DNA from: Terriglobia bacterium
Lineage (GTDB): Bacteria > Acidobacteriota > Terriglobia > Terriglobales > Acidobacteriaceae
Assembly (NCBI GenBank): GCA_020073665.1
Contig: JAIQEU010000006.1
Span: forward strand, 372,001 to 436,000
DNA length: 64,000 nt
Direction of reading: 5' to 3'
Each line of letters begins with the position of its first letter. Within the stretch, counting starts at the first letter, position 1. Positions 5,260-17,294 of this stretch are shown one piece after another. Made by a program: the position numbers and the translations under genes. A model generated the notes under the pieces. It was not told where the DNA came from, ran no database searches, and saw nothing but the letters and a program-made list of their open reading frames with translations.

Positions 5260-6294
5260 ATGGGCAATTACGCCTTAGGAGCACCGCGTCTGCCTGGGCC
5301 GCAACCTGTTGACAAATCGAAGGTTACGGACATATCCCGGGCGCAAACCGGACCCTTGATCCAGTCCGGGAGCAGTCGGCTGGCGGATCGCGCGTTCTAC
5401 TTTGCCATTCTGGCTTGCGGTCTGTGCGTGCTGGCGCTGGTCGGGCTCATCATCTTCGAACTGGTCACCAAGTCAAGCCTTTCATGGCACGCATTCGGAT
5501 GGAAGTTCTTCTTCCAGAGTGACTGGGACCCGGTCAACGACCAGTACGGAGCTTTGCCGTTTGTTTACGGCACCATCGTTTCCTCTATCCTGGCACTCGT
5601 CCTGGCGGTGCCGCTGGCCGTCGGAGTAGCGGTGTTCATCACCGAGATGTCTCCGCGCTGGCTGCGAGTTCCATTGGCATTCACCACCGAACTGCTGGCT
5701 GCGATTCCCAGCGTGATCTACGGATTGTGGGCAATCTTCGTGCTGGTCCCGCTGCTGCGCGAGTACGTGGAGCCCTGGCTCGCACGTTATTTCGGATGGA
5801 GCGGACTGTTTGAAGGCGCGCCCTACGGAATTGGAATGCTGGCCGCTGGGATCATTCTGGCCATCATGGTGGTGCCCATCATTTCCTCGATCACGCGCGA
5901 GGTGATGACCGCCGTCCCGCAGCAGCAACGCGAGGCCGTGCTGGCCCTGGGGGCAACCCGCTGGGAGATGATCCGCACCGGCGTGCTGCGCAATGCGCGG
6001 GCTGGGATCATGGGTGGCGTCATCCTCGGTCTGGGCCGAGCCCTCGGCGAGACCATGGCGGTCACCATGGTGATCGGGAACCGCCCGGAGATCGCACGCT
6101 CGCTGTTCGCTCCCGGATACACCATGGCCAGCGTCATCGCCAACGAATTCAGCGAGGCCACCGGCGACCTCTATCTCAGCGCCCTGGTTGAAGTGGGCCT
6201 GGCACTTTTCATCGTCACGATCCTGGTCAACATGGCTGCGCAGTTGCTGGTGTGGACAGTGACCCGCGGAACCCCGGCGAGGGCCAATGGCTAA
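5260..6294 (+). CDS. pstC: Phosphate ABC transporter permease PstC
   Basis: Inner-membrane permease of 344 residues. After a soluble N-terminus of about 45 residues there are about six membrane helices. The ABC-permease EAA-type loop is visible as REAVLALGATRWEMIRTGVLRNARAGIMGG, followed by LGRALGETMAVTMVIGN, which is typical of PstC. First gene of pstCAB-phoU; overlaps pstA by 8 bp. No pstS precedes it: the upstream neighbour is the divergent CHAD gene. The N-terminus is longer than in E. coli PstC, and the ATG at 5260 fits the frame. Confidence 0.96.
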   Translation: MGNYALGAPRLPGPQPVDKSKVTDISRAQTGPLIQSGSSRLADRAFYFAILACGLCVLALVGLIIFELVTKSSLSWHAFGWKFFFQSDWDPVNDQYGALPFVYGTIVSSILALVLAVPLAVGVAVFITEMSPRWLRVPLAFTTELLAAIPSVIYGLWAIFVLVPLLREYVEPWLARYFGWSGLFEGAPYGIGMLAAGIILAIMVVPIISSITREVMTAVPQQQREAVLALGATRWEMIRTGVLRNARAGIMGGVILGLGRALGETMAVTMVIGNRPEIARSLFAPGYTMASVIANEFSEATGDLYLSALVEVGLALFIVTILVNMAAQLLVWTVTRGTPARANG

Positions 6295-7171
6295 CTTGGA
6301 AACCACCGCCGACATCTCGCTCCCGCAGCTCAGCCTGTACCGGCGGGGCACGAATGTTTTGGTGACGCTCATGGCCGCCAGTGCGGTCATCCTGGTGCTG
6401 CTGCCGCTCGGTGCGGTGTTCGGATACCTGATCTACAAAGGCATCGGCTCCATCAATCTGGCCTTCCTTACCCAGACCCCGAAACCGGTTGGGGAAGCGG
6501 GCGGAGGCATGGCCAACGCCATTGCCGGCTCAGCCCTGATCCTGCTCATCGCCAGCTGCATCGGGGTGCCGGTTGGCATCGGGGGAGGAATCTATCTCGC
6601 CGAATATGGACGCAACCGCTTCGGAAACCTGATCCGCTTTACCGCAGACGTGCTGAACGGCGTGCCCTCGATCATTGTCGGCATCGTGGCCTACGGATTG
6701 GTGGTGCTGACGCAAGGGCACTTTTCGGCGCTGGCCGGCGGAGTCGCGCTGGCGATCATGATGGTTCCGACCATCACCCGGGCCACCGAAGAGATGCTTC
6801 TGCTGGTGCCCAATACGGTGCGGGAAGCCGCTCTTGGACTGGGAGTTTCGCGCTGGCGCACGACGCTATCCATCACCTTGCGGACCGCCACTTCCGGAAT
6901 CATCACCGGCGTAATGCTGGCCTTTGCCCGCGCCGCCGGGGAGACCGCTCCGCTGTTGTTCACCGCCTTCGGCAACCAGTATTGGAATTGGAACACCAGT
7001 CAGCCAACCGCGGCGCTGCCGCTGCAGATTTTTACCTACGCGATATCGCCCTTCGACGAGTGGCATCGCCAGGCCTGGGCGGGAGCGCTGATACTGATCG
7101 TCCTGATTGTGCTTGCGGTCAGCGCGGTGCGGGTTGCGGCCAGCCGGGGCATGCTCAAGGGAGCAAACTGA
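6287..7171 (+). CDS. pstA: Phosphate ABC transporter permease PstA
   Basis: Second transmembrane subunit of the high-affinity phosphate importer, 294 residues, about six helices. The permease loop reads REAALGLGVSRWRTTLSITLRTATSGIITG, followed by AFARAAGETAPLLFTAFGNQYW, characteristic of PstA. The start overlaps the end of pstC (ATGGCTAA), implying translational coupling. Pairs with PstC to form the channel and contacts PstB through the loop. Confidence 0.96.
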   Translation: MANLETTADISLPQLSLYRRGTNVLVTLMAASAVILVLLPLGAVFGYLIYKGIGSINLAFLTQTPKPVGEAGGGMANAIAGSALILLIASCIGVPVGIGGGIYLAEYGRNRFGNLIRFTADVLNGVPSIIVGIVAYGLVVLTQGHFSALAGGVALAIMMVPTITRATEEMLLLVPNTVREAALGLGVSRWRTTLSITLRTATSGIITGVMLAFARAAGETAPLLFTAFGNQYWNWNTSQPTAALPLQIFTYAISPFDEWHRQAWAGALILIVLIVLAVSAVRVAASRGMLKGAN

Positions 7172-7174
7172 GAT

Positions 7175-7933
7175 ATGGGTGTGAGCATCCAAGTCGACAA
7201 GCTGAACGCCTGGTTTGGGAAGACGCAGGCGCTTTACGACATCGACATGAAGGTCGAAGCCAATCACGCTACCGCAGTCATTGGCCCTTCCGGCTGTGGC
7301 AAGTCCACCTTCGTGCGTTGCTTGAACCGCATGCACGAAACTATTCCCGAAGCCCGGGCGACCGGGCGGGTGCGCATTGGCGAGTTAGACGTCTACAACG
7401 GGACCTCGGCCACGCAGATTCGCCGTCGTATCGGGATGGTGTTTCAGAAACCCAACCCGTTTCCAACGATGTCGATTTACGACAACGTGGCCGCGGGGTT
7501 GAAGCTCAACGGTTTCCGCGATCGCCACCGCCTGGACGAAATCGTGGAGCGTTCGCTGCAGCTCTCCGCGCTGTGGGACGAGGTGAAGGATTTTCTGAAG
7601 AAGAAGTCAGGCGCCAGCCTCTCGGGCGGACAACAGCAGCGTCTGTGCATTGCCCGCGCTCTGGCGGTCCAGCCCCAGGTACTGTTGATGGACGAACCTT
7701 GCTCGGCCCTGGACCCGATCTCGACGGGCAAAATCGAAGAGCTGATCTTCCAGCTCAAGGAAAGCTTTACCATCGTGATTGTCACCCATAATATGCAGCA
7801 AGCGTCCCGGGTGGCAGAGTTCACCGGCTTCTTCCTCCTGGGAAAGCTGATCGAGTTCGACAAGACCGAAAAGATTTTCACCAACCCGTCCGACAAACGG
7901 ACGGAGGACTACATCACAGGCAGGTTTGGATAA
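7175..7933 (+). CDS. pstB: Phosphate ABC transporter ATPase PstB
   Basis: ABC ATPase of 252 residues that powers PstCA. Walker A is GPSGCGKS at residues 37-44. The Q-loop lies in [19 protein letters not shown], typical of PstB. The signature is SLSGGQQQR, Walker B is [13 protein letters not shown], and the switch histidine is in IVTHNMQQ. Starts 3 bp after pstA; its stop overlaps the phoU start (TAATG). Confidence 0.97.
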
Positions 7934-8628
7934 TGCGTACCCGCTTTCAGCAGGGACTTGACGATCTTCGCACCCGTTTGCTGCGTATGGGCGGGCTGGC
8001 CGAGCAGGCAGTGGATCGCGCCTGCCAGGCCTATATCGACCGCGATCTTTCACGCTGCCACCTGGTGCTGGAAGGCGAATCGCAGATCAACGTGGCCGAG
8101 CGCGAGATCGACGAACTCGCCTTCGACTTGCTGGCCATGCAACAGCCTATGGCGGTGGATCTGCGCTTCATTCTTGCCGTCACCAAAATCAACTCCGACC
8201 TGGAACGCGTGGGCGATCAGGCCGTCAACATCGCGGAACGGGTGATGGACCTGGTGGAACTGCCCAAGGTTGACCTGCCGGTGGACATCCCGCGCATGGC
8301 GGCCGCAGTCTCGGCCATGGTGCGGCGCGCGCTCGAGTCCTTCATCGAAGGCAAGGCCGAACTGGCCCAGGCGGTGCTCGAGATGGACAACGTTGTCGAC
8401 CGCATGCGCGACGAAGCCTTCATCATGCTGGTGAAAGCCATGAACGAACGTCCGGAAGTCACGCGCCAGGCCCTGGATGCGCTGCTGGTGGCGCGCAACC
8501 TGGAGCGCGTCGCCGATCACGCGACCAACATTTCGGAAGACGTCATCTTCTGGGTGCGCGGAGCGGACGTACGGCATAACGTCGGGAATGATGTGGCTGC
8601 ACAGCACGAGAGTACGGATACTCATTAA
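7933..8628 (+). CDS. phoU: Phosphate transport regulator PhoU
   Basis: All-helical protein of 231 residues with two tandem PhoU domains. Metal-binding D/E-rich helices are seen in NSDLERVGDQAVNIAER and again in ARNLERVADHATNISEDVIFWVRG. PhoU links PstSCAB activity to the PhoR/PhoB response and limits phosphate uptake. The ATG overlaps the pstB stop by one base. Last gene of the operon, followed by an intrinsic terminator 26 bp downstream. No phoR/phoB pair is in the window. Confidence 0.96.
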   Translation: MRTRFQQGLDDLRTRLLRMGGLAEQAVDRACQAYIDRDLSRCHLVLEGESQINVAEREIDELAFDLLAMQQPMAVDLRFILAVTKINSDLERVGDQAVNIAERVMDLVELPKVDLPVDIPRMAAAVSAMVRRALESFIEGKAELAQAVLEMDNVVDRMRDEAFIMLVKAMNERPEVTRQALDALLVARNLERVADHATNISEDVIFWVRGADVRHNVGNDVAAQHESTDTH

Positions 8629-8682: not shown

Positions 8683-8759
8683 GTTGCGACTGGTATCTTT
8701 GAGCTTTCGGCGGGCGGATTAGAATGCTCGCCCGACACCGGCGATTCGACGGAGGAAGC

Positions 8760-11537
8760 TTGAAGCGTTTCTTGTTTGTTGCCGCTGTGCTACTGGTAGC
8801 TCATGTCGGCCTTTTTGCCCAAAAGGATTCCAAGCCGAGCGAGATTCTGCTACCCACGACCAAGCACCTGCTGCTGCCGACGCCAGGACACCTCGGCCCG
8901 GTGAACAGTTTCCCGGTGACCATAGCTTTGAGCCCTGACCAGCACTACGCGGCGCTGCTGAATGACGGATACGGGACGCAGACTGCCTTGGCCCGTCAGT
9001 CCGTCGCAATCTTGGACCTCACCACCAATCAGCTGACCGATTTTCCCGAAGATCGTCTGCCCGAATCTGCGCACCAGAGCTATTTCATTGGTCTCGCGTT
9101 CAGTTCTGACGGTAAGCATCTTTATGCATCCATGGGTTCGGTGACTGACCCCACCGGCGAGAAGCCGAAGAACACCGGAAACGGAATCGCGGTCTACAGC
9201 TTCGACCATGGCAAGGTCGTCCCCGAACGCTTCGTGAAAATCGCGCCGCAAAAGCTTCCCGACGGGAAGAAGGTCGCATTCGGTTTGCGCAAGGTGCCGC
9301 CGGGGACAGCAATTCCATATCCTGCAGGCCTGGCGTTGGTTTCCCAGCAGGGCAAAGACCGACTGTTGATCGCCAACAATCTTTCCGACAACGCAATCCT
9401 GATGGACCCTGCTGACGGCCGCATTCTGCAGACTTTCGACCTCACCACCCACCGCATTGTGCCATCTTCGTTCCCCTACACGGTGGTCGCCACCCGCGAT
9501 GGCCGCCGCGCTTGGTGCAGCTTGTGGAACGCATCCAAGGTTGCTGAACTCGATCTGGAGAAGGGAATAGTTGCCCGCTGGATATCACTGCGCGAGCCCA
9601 CAGATCCTCTCGTCCCCGGATCGCATCCCACAGCACTGCTGCTCAGCCCGGACGAAAAGCTGCTGTACGTCGCGCTCTCGAATGCAGACGCAGTGGCGAT
9701 AGTACGAACTGACAGCGGAGAGTCCTTAGGCACTCTGGGAACCCGCTTGCCGGGACAGGAGAGTTCTGGTTCGTATCCGAGCGCTCTAGCCCAATCCCCG
9801 GATGGGGAGAGGTTGTTTGTGGCCGATGCCTCGCTCAACGCTGTTGAAGTTTTTGACATATCCCATGAAAGCAACCGCTTGAGACGCAGTCCGGGTTTCA
9901 TCCCTACCGACTGGTATCCCAGCGCGCTGGCCACGGTGGGCGATGATCTTCTGATCGCGACCGCCAAAGGGGAGGGAACCGGGCCAAACAATTTCAAGGG
10001 GCACACCGCGTACGAGCGCCGTCATCGCGAGTACGCCTACATCCCAACCCTGCTTTACGGCTCGCTGGCACGCTTGAACTTCCGCGAAGCCGAAAAACAG
10101 CTGCCCGATCTCACACGCAAAGTCGAGGACTCCAACCTGCTGCATTCCGATCCCGGCAAGCTCCAGTTCGCGACGGGTGCGAATCCCATTCACCACGTGA
10201 TTTACATCCTCAAAGAAAATCGCACCTACGATCAGATCCTCGGCGACCTGAAGGTCGGTAACGGCGACAAGTCCCTGACCATGTATGGCGAGAACGTCAC
10301 GCCCAACGAGCACAAGCTGGCGCTGCAATTCGGTGTGCTCGACAATTTTTACGACAGCGGGGAAGTCTCGGGTGACGGTCACGAGTGGTCGATGGCGGCC
10401 ATTGCCAGCGACTACAACGAGAAGACCTGGCAAATCGGATACCGCAGCCAGGAACGCACCTACGACTACCAGGGCACGGTGGCCGACGAGTTTCCGCTGG
10501 AAAACGGCGAGTCCGACGTAGACGCACCTGCCACCGGATACATCTGGGATAACGTGGCCAGCCACCACCTGAGCTATCGCGACTATGGCGAGTTCATTAG
10601 CGCCGTCTGGTGCAAGCCCGCCGAAGACGCCCCTGCCCCGCCCCAGGAAGGCACCACTTCACGCTCGCCTGACGAGTGTCCGCGGCAGCATATTGCGAAA
10701 GGCGACCCGTTGCCGCCGAACGTCGGCGATCCGCACGGATCGGCAAGTCCATGGCCTTGGGCAGTTCCGGTGCTGCGCCGCGTGCGCCCGTCAAAGGCCG
10801 CTTTGCGCGATCATTACGATCCGCAGTTCCCAGACTTCAACACCGACTATCCCGACCAGCTGCGCGCCGACGAGTTCCTCAACGAGTTCGAAGGCTTTGT
10901 GCGCGCGCGCCAAGAAGGGAAGGGAACCGAGCTGCCGCAGTTCGTCCTGCTCTACCTGCCCGACGATCACACCGGCGGCACGCGCGCCGGCAGGCCCACG
11001 CCAGCAGCCTCGGTTGCGGACAACGATCTGGCGGTCGGGCGCGTGGTCGAAGCCGTGTCCCACAGCCCCTACTGGGACGACACCGCAATCTTCGTTCTGG
11101 AAGACGATGCCCAGGATGGCGCCGACCACGTGGACGCACATCGTTCGATCGCGCTTGCCATCAGCAAATACTCGCCCGGTTCGGCGGAGCATCCCTTCGT
11201 AGATAGCCGCTTCTACACCACCGTGAATATGCTCCACACCGTGGAGACGCTGCTGGGACTGCCGCCGATGAATCAGAACGACGCGTACGCCCCGGTGATG
11301 GCGCCGCTATTCTCCGGCGAGGGTAAGCAGCCTCCGTTTACAGCGGACCACAGTAATCGCGACAACAGCCTTATTTACCAGGTCAACCCGCCCAAGGGAC
11401 AAGGCGCAACGGAATCGGAGAAGATGGATTTTTCGCGGCCGGATGCCGCCAATTCGAAAGTGCTCAACGCGATTCTCTGGCGTGACAGTAAGGGCCACAC
11501 TCCTATGCCAGCACCTAGGCACGCGATGTTTCCTTAG
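8760..11537 (+). CDS. Secreted YncE-like propeller fused to alkaline-phosphatase-superfamily phosphoesterase
   Basis: Protein of 925 residues from the TTG at 8760, which has GGAGG five bases upstream and begins a classic signal peptide (MKRFLFVAAVLLVAHVGLFA, ending near AQ). An ATG at 8724 would leave an unlikely extension before it. Residues about 50-460 form a YncE/lactonase-type beta-propeller (repeated SPDG..LFVAD, LSPDEKLLYVAL). Residues about 480-925 are a phosphoesterase domain with the ENRTYDQILGD metal-site motif, GDGHEWSMAA and LEDDAQDGADHVDAHRS. It probably hydrolyses phosphate esters outside the inner membrane. Placement after pst-phoU fits phosphate scavenging; the substrate is unknown. 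Confidence 0.87.
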   Translation: MKRFLFVAAVLLVAHVGLFAQKDSKPSEILLPTTKHLLLPTPGHLGPVNSFPVTIALSPDQHYAALLNDGYGTQTALARQSVAILDLTTNQLTDFPEDRLPESAHQSYFIGLAFSSDGKHLYASMGSVTDPTGEKPKNTGNGIAVYSFDHGKVVPERFVKIAPQKLPDGKKVAFGLRKVPPGTAIPYPAGLALVSQQGKDRLLIANNLSDNAILMDPADGRILQTFDLTTHRIVPSSFPYTVVATRDGRRAWCSLWNASKVAELDLEKGIVARWISLREPTDPLVPGSHPTALLLSPDEKLLYVALSNADAVAIVRTDSGESLGTLGTRLPGQESSGSYPSALAQSPDGERLFVADASLNAVEVFDISHESNRLRRSPGFIPTDWYPSALATVGDDLLIATAKGEGTGPNNFKGHTAYERRHREYAYIPTLLYGSLARLNFREAEKQLPDLTRKVEDSNLLHSDPGKLQFATGANPIHHVIYILKENRTYDQILGDLKVGNGDKSLTMYGENVTPNEHKLALQFGVLDNFYDSGEVSGDGHEWSMAAIASDYNEKTWQIGYRSQERTYDYQGTVADEFPLENGESDVDAPATGYIWDNVASHHLSYRDYGEFISAVWCKPAEDAPAPPQEGTTSRSPDECPRQHIAKGDPLPPNVGDPHGSASPWPWAVPVLRRVRPSKAALRDHYDPQFPDFNTDYPDQLRADEFLNEFEGFVRARQEGKGTELPQFVLLYLPDDHTGGTRAGRPTPAASVADNDLAVGRVVEAVSHSPYWDDTAIFVLEDDAQDGADHVDAHRSIALAISKYSPGSAEHPFVDSRFYTTVNMLHTVETLLGLPPMNQNDAYAPVMAPLFSGEGKQPPFTADHSNRDNSLIYQVNPPKGQGATESEKMDFSRPDAANSKVLNAILWRDSKGHTPMPAPRHAMFP

Positions 11538-11939: not shown

Positions 11940-12203
11940 CTAACTGTTCGGCTGTTCCGGGGGCAAAAGCTCTTCTTCCAGCACGCCCATCTGCTCCAGG
12001 AGTTCGTAGGTGCGCCGGGCCTCGGCCTCATCCAGGCGGCTGATGGCGAAGCCGACGTGGACCAGGACGTAGTCGCCCAGATCCGCTTCGGGCACGAAGT
12101 CCAGGCAGATTTCGCGCTTGATCCCGCCGAACTGGACCTGGCCCACCGCCACGCCGCCGATGTTGGTTTTGGTCAGCAACTTTCCGGGAATGGCCAAGCA
12201 CAT
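11940..12203 (-). CDS. hypC: Hydrogenase maturation chaperone HypC/HupF
   Basis: Small chaperone of 87 residues starting MCLAIPGKLL; the invariant Cys2 carries the Fe(CN)2CO unit in HypC proteins. It delivers the iron centre to, and holds open, the immature large subunit. Last gene of the hydrogenase operon, 12 bp after the protease gene. It could be the group-1-specific paralogue HupF rather than the general HypC. HypA, B, D, E and F are not in the window. Confidence 0.94.
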   Translation of the reverse strand: MCLAIPGKLLTKTNIGGVAVGQVQFGGIKREICLDFVPEADLGDYVLVHVGFAISRLDEAEARRTYELLEQMGVLEEELLPPEQPNS

Positions 12204-12215
12204 AAAAAGCTCCGT

Positions 12216-12749
12216 TCAGACCTCAACTGCCGGCGCTAGCTCGAACACGAGTTGGTCAACGATCTGTTGCGTTTTTTCGAGAGCCGGTCCTATCGATTTC
12301 TGCACCGCTGGCGACAGGCCCAAGCGAGTGCAGACCGATTCGGGCTGCACTCCGACTACGTAAAGCCGATCGGGCAAATCGCCGAGCAAAGCCGCGACCG
12401 ACAGCAGTTCCATGGCATTGCTCTCGTGCGCCGAACAACTGCGCTGTTTCGGGCCCGAGATCTCCGCCAGCCCAGCCAGCACCGAAACCGTTCCCGGCAC
12501 TTCTCCCGTGTCGAGCGCATCCAGGATCACCAGTGCCCTGCGGTTGGCAATCAGCCCGAGCAGGGCCAAGCCCTGGGTTCCGCCGTCCACGAACTCGACG
12601 CCAGGCGCGTTCTCTTCGTTGTGGACTATGAGTTCCTCGAGCAACGCAGGCCCGAAGCCGTCGTCGCCCAGCAATACGTTGCCCACGCCTAGCACCAGTA
12701 TAGGCCTCTCCTGCGTGTCACTCGCGAAATCAGCTGACCCAGCGGTCAT
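12216..12749 (-). CDS. hyaD: Hydrogenase maturation protease (HyaD/HupD family)
   Basis: Nickel-dependent endopeptidase that clips the C-terminal tail of the large subunit once nickel is inserted; 177 residues. The metal-site positions are visible: GNVLLGDDGFG (residues 23-33), VILDALD (74-80) and SAHE with H108, matching the acidic, acidic, His set of HybD. Overlaps the cytochrome b gene by 20 bp, so translation is probably coupled. Confidence 0.93.
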   Translation of the reverse strand: MTAGSADFASDTQERPILVLGVGNVLLGDDGFGPALLEELIVHNEENAPGVEFVDGGTQGLALLGLIANRRALVILDALDTGEVPGTVSVLAGLAEISGPKQRSCSAHESNAMELLSVAALLGDLPDRLYVVGVQPESVCTRLGLSPAVQKSIGPALEKTQQIVDQLVFELAPAVEV

Positions 12750-13467
12750 GCTTCAGGTCTCCCCGTTTGTAAAACTTGTAGCCCGAGATGATCGAGGTGA
12801 TCAGTCCATTGCCGTATTGCGTGGAGTCGTACAGGATCACGTACACGTGGAGTATGGCAAAGACCACGAATCCCCAGGCGAAGGTGTGGTGCCACATCCG
12901 GGCCTGGAAAGAACCGCCGAGGAAGGGAAGCACCCAGCCGAACACCCGGCCGAAGAAGCCACTGGGATTGGTTTCCGAATACAGGGCAAAACCAGTGAAC
13001 ATCTGCGCCCAGCCCAGGGCCACCACGAACAGGGTGTAAACCAGGCCGCCCAGCGAGTTGTGTCCCAGGTGGACGTGTCCGCGTTCGAGTTTCAGGTAGT
13101 CGGTCGCTTGCCGGAACAGGTCTCGCCACCAGCTGGGCCGCCATACAAACGGGAATCCCGAACGGGAGTAGTTGTTTCCCATCCAGAACCAGTACACGCG
13201 TACCAGGAAGCTGACCATGAAGACCATGGCCGAGATGAAATGGATCTGCCGGACACGTCCCATGACGAAGTTCTTGTAGGCTTCACCGCTGGGAGCCAGG
13301 ATGGGATGCGATATGTAAATCCCGGTCAGAAACAGCACGATCAGGCAGGCGGCGTTCACCCAGTGGCTGATGCGCACCGGCAGTTCCCACACATATTCCC
13401 GGCGGAAGTAGCTGTCCGGGTGCTGCGCCATATCCTTCGGATCGAACTCTCTGATGGCAGTGGCCAT
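12730..13467 (-). CDS. hyaC: Ni/Fe-hydrogenase b-type cytochrome subunit
   Basis: Integral membrane dihaem cytochrome b of 245 residues that passes electrons from the small subunit to the quinone pool. It begins with a soluble stretch, then ELPVRISHWVNAACLIVLFLTGIYISHP, with the first haem-ligand histidine. Further histidines lie in RQIHFISAMVF and, near residue 200, MWHHTFAWGFVVFAILHVYVILY. About four helices. It sits 9 bp after the large-subunit gene. Marks this as a membrane-bound, respiratory uptake hydrogenase. Confidence 0.95.
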   Translation of the reverse strand: MATAIREFDPKDMAQHPDSYFRREYVWELPVRISHWVNAACLIVLFLTGIYISHPILAPSGEAYKNFVMGRVRQIHFISAMVFMVSFLVRVYWFWMGNNYSRSGFPFVWRPSWWRDLFRQATDYLKLERGHVHLGHNSLGGLVYTLFVVALGWAQMFTGFALYSETNPSGFFGRVFGWVLPFLGGSFQARMWHHTFAWGFVVFAILHVYVILYDSTQYGNGLITSIISGYKFYKRGDLKHDRWVS

Positions 13468-13476
13468 GATCGTCTC

Positions 13477-15198
13477 CTAACGGATGATCACTTCGGACAA
13501 TTTGCGGCCGTCGGGCCCCAGCACATGCGAGGCACACGCCAGGCACGGGTCAAACGAGTGGATGGTGCGCAGGATCTCCACCGGCCGCTTGGGATCGGCC
13601 ATCGGCGTATCCAGCAGCGCGGCCTCGTAAGCTCCACGCTGTCCCTGGCCATCCTTGGGCGATGCATTCCAGGTTGAAGGCACCACGATCTGGTAATTAG
13701 CAATCTTCTGGTCTTTGATGTGGAGCCAGTGGCCAAGCGCTCCACGAGGCGCTTCGGTAAAGCCGAAACCCTTGGCTTCCGCGGGCCAGGTCGAAGGATC
13801 CCAACGCGACGTATCGGCGGTGGCAGAATCGCCGGCCTTCAGGTTGGTAATCAGGTGTTCATACTCCTGCATCAACCAGCGTACGGCCAACCGAGTCTCC
13901 AGGCCGCGGGCTGCGGTGCGTCCCAGGGTAGAGAACAGGGCCGTGGCCGGCAGCTTCAATGCGCCGAGGGCCTCGCCCACCACATCTTTGAACTCGGTGT
14001 TGCCGCTGGCATAGCCCACCAGCATGCGGGCCAGCGGACCTACTTCTACGGCGTTGCCTTTCCAGCGCGGAGACTTCAGCCAGGAGTAGCCGCCATTCTC
14101 ATCGAGCTGTTTGTAGGGCGGCTTGGGTCCGTTGTACCGGGCCTGGGTCACGCCGTCCCAGGGATGGAGCGCCTTTTTTCCTTCCGGATATTCGTACCAG
14201 GAGTGCGCGACCTCTTCCGTGATTTGTCCGCTGTCGGCCAGGTCAAGCGGCAGGACTTCGCTGAGATTCTTGTGCAGCACCACGCCGCGCGGGAAGCGGA
14301 AGCGGCTGGGATCGCCGATGCCGTTCTGCGGAATGTCGCCATACACCATGTAGCTTCCCAACCCGCCACCGATCTGCGTCCACTCGGGATAGAACGACGC
14401 CACCGCCAGCAGGTCGGGAATATAGAGGTTCTCCACGATGTTGGTGGCATCCTGAATCAGCCCGCGAACGTAGTTCAGCCGCTCCATGTTGATGGCGTTG
14501 TCGCCCTGCATGGAGATCGCCGACGCCATGCCGCCCACGATGTAGTTGGGATGAGGATTCTTGCCACCGAAAATGGTGTGGATCTTGACGATTTCTTTTT
14601 GCCACTTCAGCGCTTCCAGGTAGTGGGCCACGGCCATCAGGTTAGCTTCCGCAGGCAGCTTGTACGCGGGATGCCCCCAGTAGGCGTTCTGGAAAATGCC
14701 CAGTTGTCCGGAGTCGGCAAACTTCTTGAGCGTGCCGGCGATGTCACGGAAATATCCCGTGCTGGCATATGGCCATGACGGTGAGACTTTCTGCGCCAAG
14801 GCGGCGGTGGCGGCGGGATCGGCCTTCAGCGCCGAGACTACATCCACCCAATCGAGTGCGTGCAGATGGTAGAAGTGAATGACATGGTCCTGCACCATCT
14901 GGGTGAGGAACATGATGTTGCGGATGATGTCGGCATTGGGCGGCACCTGGATGCCCAGCGCATTCTCCACCGAACGCACCGAGGCCAGCGCGTGCACCGT
15001 GGTGCAGACGCCGCAGATGCGTTCGGCAAAGGCCCAGGCATCGCGGGGATCACGTCCCTGCAGGATCACTTCCAGGCCGCGCCACATGGTGCCTGACGAA
15101 ATGGCATCGTGAATGACGTTGCGATCGTCCAGCATGGCTTCGATGCGCAGATGGCCTTCAATGCGAGTTACGGGATCGACCACCACTCGAGTCGTCAT
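13477..15198 (-). CDS. hyaB: [NiFe] hydrogenase large subunit, group 1
   Basis: Catalytic subunit of 573 residues that oxidises H2. The N-terminal nickel ligands are in RICGVC (R60, C62, C65). The C-terminal pair is in DPCLACASH (C552, C555, H558), followed by a 15-residue tail from V559 that the maturation protease should remove after H558. EGHLRIE near residue 14 is also typical. The ATG overlaps the small-subunit stop by 4 bp (ATGA on the minus strand). All catalytic residues are present, so it should be active. Confidence 0.97.
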
Positions 15199-16316
15199 AC
15201 GTCACCTCTGCCTTTGTCGCCGCTGTCCGGAGTTGGTTGCGCGGGCTTCTGTCCGAAACGGCGCACCACGCTGGAAACGAAGTGCGCGCCCACACCGATC
15301 ACCGCGGCCCCGGCAAGCGTGGCCCCGACCTCATCGGGCGTGGAGTCGATCCCCGGTACCGGGATGCCGGAGAGCCGCTGGTAGAAAGGTCCGTTGTCCC
15401 AGAAGTTGTTTTCGGCGCATCCGATGCAGCCATGCCCCGAGCCGATCGGCCAGGAAACGCCGTTGTTCCATTTGAAGGTGGAGCAGGAGTTGTAAGTGCT
15501 GGGCCCGCGGCATCCCATTTTGTACAGGCACCAGCCTTTGCGAGCGCCCTCGTCATCCCAGGCTTCGACGAACTGTCCGGCGTCGAAGAACGGGCGGCGA
15601 TAACACTTGTCATGCAGACGCTGGCCGTAGAACATTTTCGGCCGGCCAATTCTGTCCAGTTCGGGGAGTTGTCCGAAGGTCAGAATGTAGGTCAGCACTC
15701 CGGTCATGACCTCGGCGATGGGAGGGCAGCCGGGCACATTGATGATGGTCTTGTGCGGCAGCAGAGCGTGAATCGGCTTGGCGCCGGTCGGATTCGGCTT
15801 CGCCGCCTGCACGCATCCGTTCGAAGCGCAGGAACCCCAGGCGATGATCGCCTTGGCCTTTTCCGCCGTCTCCTCCAGAATGCTGAGGAAAGTTTCTCCG
15901 CCGACGGTGCAGTACACGCCGCCGTCCTTGGTGGGCGCATTGCCTTCCACCGCCAGCAGGTATTCCCCGGGATACTCCTTCATGATCCGCTTGCGAATGT
16001 CCTCCACCTGGAAGCCGGCGGCGGCTTGCAGGGTGTCGTCGTAATCCAGGGAGATCATGTTCAGGATGATGTCCTGCGCAATGGGGTGGGAGGAGCGGAT
16101 GAACGACTCGCTGCAGCAGGTGCACTCCAGCCCGTGCAGCCAGATGACGGGGATGCGGGGCTTGTTCTCCAGGGCCTCGACAATCTGAGGGACCATGGTG
16201 GCGTCCAACCCCAGGGCGGCGGCCATCGCGGTACAGAACTTGATGAAGCTCCTGCGGTCCACGCCATGCTGTTCCAGGACCTGATAGGTGGAGGGCCTGA
16301 GCGGTGGATTCTCCAT
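15195..16316 (-). CDS. hyaA: [NiFe] hydrogenase small subunit, oxygen-tolerant type
   Basis: Iron-sulfur subunit of 373 residues from the ATG at 16316, chosen because GAGAGGGG precedes it and because a Tat signal (RRSFIKF, residues 21-27) follows. The frame stays open upstream, but that part looks non-coding. The proximal cluster region reads CTCCSE with C65, C67, C68, then GSCASNGC with C163 and C168, plus PGCPP. C67 and C168 correspond to the two extra cysteines that build the 4Fe-3S cluster of oxygen-tolerant hydrogenases. Distal and medial cluster ligands follow (H and Cys of LHDKC, then WC, GCRGP, GCIGC). A C-terminal hydrophobic helix (about 322-341) anchors it to the membrane. Confidence 0.97.
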
Positions 16317-16526: not shown

Positions 16527-17294
16527 ATGAAGAGACTTCCACGAACGGCTCGCAGCGGAAAAGGAAAGCCGGATCGGGTTTTGGGTCACCAAGACCGGCG
16601 CCGCCCTCGTTTCTCCCGGGAGCTTTCTGTGCTTTACGAGGACGATGCGGTGGTCGTTCTCGACAAACCGGCCGGGCTTCTGGCCGTGCCAATTAAGGGT
16701 TCCGATACTGCGTCCGCTTTGTCTCTGCTTGTCGCAAAACTCAAGCTGAACCGACAACGGGCCTTGGTGGTGCATCGCATCGATCGCTTTGCCTCCGGGG
16801 CTTTGCTATTTGCGAAGACCCGTCCGGATCGAGATGCGCTGGTGCGGCAATTTCTCGACCATACTCCCGTAAGGCAGTATCTCGCGGTGCTGCGCGGCCG
16901 TCTCAGCGTGGAGGCGGGGACGCTGGTGCACTATTTTCGTCGGGAAGGAATGTTTCAGCAGTTGCGCACGGCGAGAGACCCCCGAGCGGCCCGTGCCGAA
17001 CTGCGATATTCCGTCGAGCGCCTTTTTGCGGATGCTTCGCTGGTTCGGGTTGAGCTGGTCACAGGATTGCAAAATCAGATTCGAGCGCAATTCTCGGCGA
17101 CGGGACACCCGGTTATCGGTGACAGAAAATACCAGCCGGCGGAATCGTTGGAGCCGCTCATTGCTCGCGTTGCTCTTCACGCCGTGCATCTTCAATTTGC
17201 CCATCCGCGCTCGGGGAAAACCGTCTCGATTGACTGCAAACTACCCCCCGATTTTCAGCATCTGGTTCAAGCACTGTCGCGATCGCGCCGGTGA
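16527..17294 (+). CDS. RluA-family pseudouridine synthase
   Basis: Protein of 255 residues converting uridine to pseudouridine in rRNA or tRNA. The catalytic motif is [17 protein letters not shown] with the nucleophile D86, a slight variant of the usual HRLDxxTSG. Further family signatures are [14 protein letters not shown] near residue 43 and [21 protein letters not shown] near residue 180, with TGLQNQIR replacing the usual TGRxHQIR. No S4 domain is visible. It is divergent from the hydrogenase operon and does not appear functionally linked to it. Target site unknown. Confidence 0.88.

Follow-up and report, generated by a model that had tools for sequence, protein, structure and literature searches.

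The 64,000-nucleotide stretch of a Terriglobia bacterium genome analysed here (the window) carries a five-gene operon on its minus strand in the order hyaA-hyaB-hyaC-hyaD-hypC, encoding the small and large subunits of a [NiFe]-hydrogenase, a cytochrome b, a maturation endopeptidase and a HypC chaperone (Table 1). The hyaA product matches TIGR00391 at 509 bits against a cut-off of 179.5. Its mechanical open reading frame (ORF) extends upstream to 16775 (526 aa), and a start at 16316 fits both its relatives and the twin-arginine (Tat) motif RRSFIKF. Neighbouring genes overlap at two junctions, by 4 bases between the hyaA stop and the hyaB start and by 20 bases between hyaC and hyaD. Both the Tat signal and the b-type cytochrome subunit are expected for group 1d, and the four histidines of hyaC are kept in 99-100% of 76 aligned rows. 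An earlier sequence-only reading of the window had placed the small subunit at exactly 15195-16316 and described its Tat signal and cytochrome b partner; we recovered all of these and add the strand.

The small subunit aligned by phmmer to HoxK of the Cupriavidus membrane-bound hydrogenase (MBH; PDB 5mdj_S) over residues 49-358 with no gaps (E = 2.9e-146), with identities of 62% to HoxK and 58% to E. coli HyaA that exclude a chance match. All 14 of its cysteines line up with those of HyaA, uniformly shifted by 3 positions, and with those of HoxK, uniformly shifted by 5, and C65, C67, C68, C163, C168 and C197 therefore correspond to C17, C19, C20, C115, C120 and C149 of mature MBH, the six ligands by which group 1d is recognised. 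The sequence-only reading had compared the site to E. coli Hyd-1 and MBH and numbered five of these cysteines; C197 is the sixth, and the two extra cysteines it had singled out, C67 and C168, match the [4Fe-3S] ligands C19 and C120. Loss of C19 and C120, singly or together, lowers the oxygen tolerance of MBH, and native MBH, unlike its C19G variant, regains activity once O2 is withdrawn with no need for reductive pulses (PMC10583674). The alignment thus supports a full set of ligands for a predicted proximal [4Fe-3S] cluster. The proline ahead of the medial-cluster cysteines is also retained.

Table 1. Features of the hydrogenase operon and its flank, in window coordinates.
Feature	Position	Strand	Evidence
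hyaA-type [NiFe]-hydrogenase small subunit, 373 aa	15195..16316	minus	TIGR00391, PF14720, PF01058; best PDB match Cupriavidus HoxK
Tat motif RRSFIKF, residues 21-27	16236..16256	minus	matches RRSFLKYC of HyaA and HoxK
C65, C67, C68 (C17, C19, C20 of MBH); C67 is an extra cysteine	16113..16124	minus	alignment, codon check
C163, C168 (C115, C120 of MBH); C168 is the second extra cysteine	15813..15830	minus	alignment, codon check
C197 (C149 of MBH), sixth proximal ligand, in VPGCPP	15726..15728	minus	alignment, codon check
Other cluster cysteines, C238 to C300	15417..15605	minus	PF14720; in register with HyaA and HoxK
hyaB-type large subunit, 573 aa	13477..15198	minus	PF00374, 762 bits
L1 motif of large subunit, with Glu59 (Glu73 of Hyd-5)	14992..15024	minus	alignment, codon check
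L2 motif DPCLACASH, end of mature large subunit	13525..13551	minus	sequence comparison, codon check
hyaC-type cytochrome b; His35, His76, His193, His207	12730..13467	minus	TIGR02125, 175 bits (cut-off 121.5)
hyaD-type maturation endopeptidase	12216..12749	minus	TIGR00072, 127 bits (cut-off 47.45); PF01750
hypC chaperone	11940..12203	minus	TIGR00074, 79 bits (cut-off 48)
Pseudouridine synthase, other side of operon	16527..17294		PF00849

A scan of species genomes with the window small subunit returned 382 relatives, of which the best 80, ranked by similarity to the window protein, were kept; most of the related loci are contigs of metagenome-assembled genomes (MAGs). Loci L003-L036 share 70-84% identity and are titled Acidobacteria except for two Planctomycetota MAG loci (L026 and L027). 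Past L036, among these best 80, identity falls to 59-67% and the loci are mostly from Proteobacteria, with two from Polyangiaceae and two from Aquifex. Both extra cysteines are present in all 35 rows of the window clade (the window and L003-L036; two rows are truncated elsewhere), and none of the six peptide patterns used to fetch clade loci includes the extra-cysteine motif. Across the window's phylum, a homologue at E <= 1e-30 was found in 86 of 396 sampled genomes including the window's own (66 of 211 genera). Cysteines were read in the 30 best matches, from 30 of those genomes, and in four weaker ones, leaving the matches of the other 52 genomes unread: both extra cysteines occur in 30/30 of the best loci and in 0/4 of the weaker (L194-L197). 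Twenty-three of these best 30 come from a second lineage, whose identity is 56-61% and whose motif is FQECTCC, or LQECTCC in a single locus. In this lineage (L154-L177, except L175), the ten large subunits that were read have the Ile of ERICGVC replaced by Ala, Thr or Val.

The large subunit is 56% identical to E. coli HyaB and 55% identical to HoxG, and its L1 and L2 motifs agree with those given for group 1d (L1 being RICGVCTxxH; PMC5364354). In Salmonella Hyd-5, oxygen tolerance is affected by large-subunit residues Glu73 and His229, and the first of these positions is described as usually Glu in tolerant and Gln in sensitive enzymes, with Aquifex as an exception carrying Gln (PMC3940037). 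The window protein has Glu59 and His216 at these positions. Counting the window, Glu occupies the Glu73 position in 34 of 35 window-clade rows, the remaining row being truncated and unreadable there, in 10/10 rows of the second acidobacterial clade, and in 44 of 45 mostly proteobacterial comparison rows (L078 has Gln), versus 0/2 Aquifex rows; a divergent six-cysteine row, L193, has Gln. Among 20 large subunits from enzymes without the six cysteines, the 14 readable at this position comprise 11 Gln, 2 Pro and 1 Met. The E. coli Hyd-2 and Allochromatium sequences have Gln here. Glu59 therefore fits a second marker of oxygen-tolerant enzymes in the window hydrogenase.

We searched for the maturation helpers that accompany such enzymes using profiles built from one half of the comparison loci, which are mostly proteobacterial, and run on all locus ORFs. 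The profiles found no hyaE/hoxO, hyaF/hoxQ, hoxR or hoxT/hybE in the window operon. Counted over loci with at least 6 kb downstream, which leaves out 16 of the 38 window-clade loci, HyaE/HoxO, HyaF/HoxQ and HoxT/HybE were each found in 0/22 window-clade loci and a HoxR-like gene in one (L014). All four helpers were missing from the ten loci of the second clade and from L193 (0/11). The same profiles detected E in 12, F in 13, R in 13 and T in 13 of 15 held-out, mostly proteobacterial comparison loci, two of which (L056 and L064) had none of the four; both Aquifex loci carried E and F and no R or T. Among loci with less than 6 kb downstream, L027 gave a weak match to the HyaE profile (E 0.0046, 15.9 bits). 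A further profile, V (HoxV), also matches the large subunit and was dropped because its hits carry no information.

The pattern extended beyond the loci. Genome-wide searches with PF04809, PF07449 and PF11939 compared six clade genomes (the window's, listed as 100% complete, and five reached via their loci, of unknown completeness) with four comparison genomes: HupH_C was found in 0/6 versus 4/4, HyaE in 0/6 over cut-off (with one sub-cut-off match in G009) versus 3/4, and HybE in 0/6 versus 2/4. The search for HoxR covered the loci only. As for an alternative helper, ORFs of at least 80 aa around 49 loci were clustered and the 40 largest families judged by their names and reading frames; with a single exception, these were structural or hyp families or overlapping shadow ORFs. 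The exception, a response-regulator-like family in 6/49 loci, has nothing similar in the window operon, and these families thus offer no candidate there for a hidden helper. If maturation of E. coli Hyd-1 indeed persists without hyaE or hyaF, this limits what the missing genes can tell us. In the open-access literature we found nothing on a missing helper set in Acidobacteria. For Cupriavidus it has been proposed that remodelling of the cluster in aerobic conditions needs auxiliary proteins, with HoxR enabling the Cys19 bridge (PMC10583674).

Phylogenetic placement used quick tree searches on part of the loci, with SH-aLRT (approximate likelihood-ratio test) values as the only support. The large-subunit trees and the first small-subunit tree took 23 of 44 comparison loci and both Aquifex; the wider small-subunit tree took 16 of 34 clade loci, 12 comparison loci and one Aquifex. 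The small-subunit trees were built without the ligand columns and residue 166. In the first, six-cysteine rows fall on one side of a branch with support 100 (63 of 77 rows), and in the wider tree on one side of a branch with support 97 (57 of 75 rows), with one change of state. There, the window clade, comparison 1d enzymes and Aquifex group together at 98 to the exclusion of the FQECTCC clade and L175, and 17 of 18 rows labelled as window clade group at 89, a gappy row (L153) falling with the other clade. Together the small-subunit trees place the window enzyme with 1d and favour a single origin of the six-cysteine state; distant sampling in the wider tree was acidobacterial only and does not locate where the trait began. 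Placement of the large subunit, which the sequence-only reading had proposed as a check, recovered the window clade (31 rows) at 99 on a backbone without resolution between 1d and 1c/1e references; a constraint keeping all six-cysteine large subunits together raised the likelihood by 9.43, and the approximately unbiased test did not reject it (p-AU 0.746). On these residues and the small-subunit trees we describe the enzyme as group 1d-type, within a mainly acidobacterial clade. HydDB labels this group oxygen-tolerant (PMC5037454). Group 1f, described as lacking the two extra cysteines and having one ligand replaced by Asn or Asp (PMC5364354), is ruled out by the six-ligand pattern, and group 1h (Huc/Hhy) by large-subunit scores of 176 bits for the PDB Huc large chain versus 775 for Hyd-5.

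We also examined the rest of the host genome, in which two further [NiFe] large subunits are recognisable. One, on contig C42, has hypABDE and genes for NADH-linked (HoxE/F/U/Y-like) subunits as neighbours. In the PDB it is matched best by 7t2r_D, a NiFe hydrogenase large subunit, and 5xf9_D, an NAD-reducing hydrogenase; it looks like group 3d, a name assigned in this analysis. The other, on contig C6, adjoins HdrA- and HdrB-like genes, with 7t2r_D, an F420-reducing-type alpha subunit and the methyl-viologen-reducing MvhA as best PDB matches, and looks like group 3c, again our own naming. Neither protein has a Huc chain in its top 60 PDB matches, and no 1h-like hydrogenase was recognised in the genome; two weak partial matches (C4 and C7) look like NuoD-type proteins. 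The operon's hypC is the only HypC-family gene detected (PF01455, one genome-wide match), while hypD, hypE, hypA and hypB lie on another contig beside the 3d-like hydrogenase (L098), and one HypC may serve all three enzymes. Beside the 3c-like large and small subunits and HdrA-/HdrB-like genes (L097, 3177-11324) lies a hydrophobic 401-aa protein with no Pfam match (10119-11324). The COX1 family gave four matches over cut-off and RuBisCO none in the host genome, which would fit an oxygen-respiring heterotroph that uses H2 as a supplement.

Comparison with known systems places the operon close to two known group 1d enzymes. Cupriavidus necator MBH (HoxKGZ) shares its six proximal cysteines, Tat signal, cytochrome b, protease and HypC-like gene, but the window operon lacks HoxO, HoxQ, HoxR and HoxT, and the MBH region of plasmid pHG1 has two HypC-family genes versus one in the window's whole genome. 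E. coli Hyd-1 (HyaABCDEF) shares the hyaABCD order, the six cysteines and the Glu before RICG, whereas hyaE and hyaF are absent from the window operon and have no family match genome-wide. The window large subunit also lacks the N-terminal extension present in HyaB and HoxG. Group 1d has already been reported in Acidobacteria, in Thermoanaerobaculum aquaticum (EG19_11475; PMC5900883) and Ca. P. svalbardensis AM4 (PMC8528874), and 1d genes are expressed in acid-mine sulfate-reducing Acidobacteria (PMC9448743); these share phylum and group with the window enzyme by description. The hup-type enzymes of thermophilic methanotrophs, including Methylacidiphilum fumariolicum SolV, carry the two extra cysteines, and the SolV 1d enzyme (HupSL) shares the 1d L1 and L2 motifs (PMC5364354). 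SolV differs in having RuBisCO, a 1h enzyme and, in its gene list, HupH (PMC5364354), where the window's genome has no RuBisCO match, no recognised 1h and no HupH_C match.

From these features we consider it probable that the operon encodes a membrane-anchored, periplasm-facing uptake [NiFe]-hydrogenase of group 1d type that resists O2 and is assembled at low oxygen, a reading for which we count the six ligands in register, Glu59, the L1 and L2 motifs, the Tat signal, cytochrome b, protease and hypC. H2 would be split at the NiFe site of HyaB, and electrons would leave it through the six-cysteine proximal [4Fe-3S] cluster, cross the medial and distal clusters of HyaA and reach haem b in HyaC, the quinone pool and finally terminal oxidases. 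Because RuBisCO was not found in the host, H2 would most likely supplement the electron supply of a heterotroph. The [4Fe-3S] cluster would give O2 resistance and fast recovery, and since the dedicated aerobic maturation set is missing, the enzyme would be assembled mainly at low oxygen, in settings such as wet or peaty soil, and still be active once air returns. The sequence-only reading had predicted H2 oxidation to quinone in air; the quinone part is supported, by family, while the air part goes further than the sequence allows, given the SolV precedent and the missing helpers.

Several observations weigh against this account or complicate it. The large subunit matches Salmonella Hyd-5 and the four-cysteine Allochromatium enzyme equally well (775 and 774 bits), the large-subunit backbone lacks resolution, and support for the window clade is only 3 in the first small-subunit tree. 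Residue 166, Trp in HoxK and HyaA and Asn in the window, is no clade marker: it is Asn in 27, His in 6 and Tyr in 2 of 35 clade rows, and Asn also in L073. With the missing N-terminal extension, the large-subunit data leave room for independent gain of the cysteines in an enzyme of group 1e or 1f kind. We regard this as very unlikely and do not favour it, given the single change of state in small-subunit trees lacking the ligand columns (support 100 and 97), the constraint that was not rejected (p-AU 0.746, likelihood 9.43 higher) and a Glu rather than Gln at position 59. Also against the account is the precedent of the SolV 1d enzyme, called oxygen-sensitive, expressed below 0.2% O2 and treated as inactive at or above 0.2% O2 (PMC7174314), by which six cysteines are not sufficient for activity in air. 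T. aquaticum is described as an anaerobic reducer of iron and manganese oxides (PMC8528874), and a Thermoanaerobaculum MAG locus (L017) falls within the window clade, so six cysteines alone do not mean life in air.

These last points feed a different account of use, in which the enzyme serves anaerobic or microoxic respiration and its cysteines help it survive brief O2 rather than oxidise H2 in air. The SolV 1d precedent (PMC5364354, PMC7174314), the absence of the aerobic-maturation helper set in the clade, the Thermoanaerobaculum enzyme and the statement that oxygen-tolerant-type 1d/3d hydrogenases of sulfate reducers are not necessarily a sign of O2 tolerance (PMC9448743) all speak for it, and the four COX1-family matches over cut-off, the retained Glu59 and E. 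coli Hyd-1, oxygen-tolerant though made in anaerobic growth (PMC3431244), speak against. We give it a substantial but minority weight; it overlaps the O2-resistant uptake enzyme we prefer, being the same protein put to another use, and the two confidences are not additive. The trace-gas use of H2 that the sequence-only reading had also raised finds no support. Acidobacteria do scavenge atmospheric H2, with Acidobacterium ailaaui and its group 1f enzyme cited (PMC6776052), but the window enzyme is neither 1h nor 1f (1f being described as without the extra cysteines; PMC5364354), the apparent affinity of SolV 1d is estimated at 1-2 uM (PMC5364354), and both other recognisable hydrogenases of the genome are group 3-type, none that resembles 1h having been found. 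We regard a high-affinity role on atmospheric H2 as very unlikely. The window hydrogenase is a well-marked but ordinary member of a known group, and claims of activity in air and trace-gas use exceed the evidence.

The part worth following is the separation of the cluster from the helper set. [NiFe]-hydrogenases are often described as owing their oxygen tolerance to one package of six cysteines and helper proteins, and a soil phylum with the cysteines but without the helpers is a natural experiment for telling what the cluster requires from what its synthesis in air requires. Tentatively, and with rather less than even confidence, we suggest that six-cysteine hydrogenases arose once, that their deep diversity is largely acidobacterial (the window clade and the outlying FQECTCC clade), that these build a genuine [4Fe-3S] cluster without HyaE, HyaF, HoxR or HoxT, and that the proteobacterial helpers are a later addition. 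If so, those helpers would serve synthesis in air, and the cluster and the aerobic assembly line would be separable traits. The data also warn that a cysteine motif or group label alone is no basis for reading aerobic or trace-gas H2 use.

Other small subunits met in the survey differ around the clusters. In ten clade loci (L015, L018, L022, L023, L028-L032 and L035), mostly titled Bryobacterales or Bryobacteraceae, an extra cysteine that the window lacks stands just before the medial-cluster proline (NCGQGWP, NDGCGFP, NECVSFP) and possibly alters the medial cluster. Two genomes of the window's family (L196 and L197) have in its place a small subunit of CAGN type, the kind described for group 1f, and the genome of L003 has a second, four-cysteine small subunit (L125, FQDCTGCTETL) that groups with E. 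coli Hyd-2-type sequences in trees. One homologue (L149, G017:C124) has a single in-frame TGA inside the match. In the window itself, a gap of about 400 bases separates hypC from the end of an opposite-strand gene. Also present are a 937-aa protein that weakly matches the beta-propeller lactonase and phosphoesterase families (8724-11537) and a pstC-pstA-pstB-phoU phosphate uptake operon (5260-8628).

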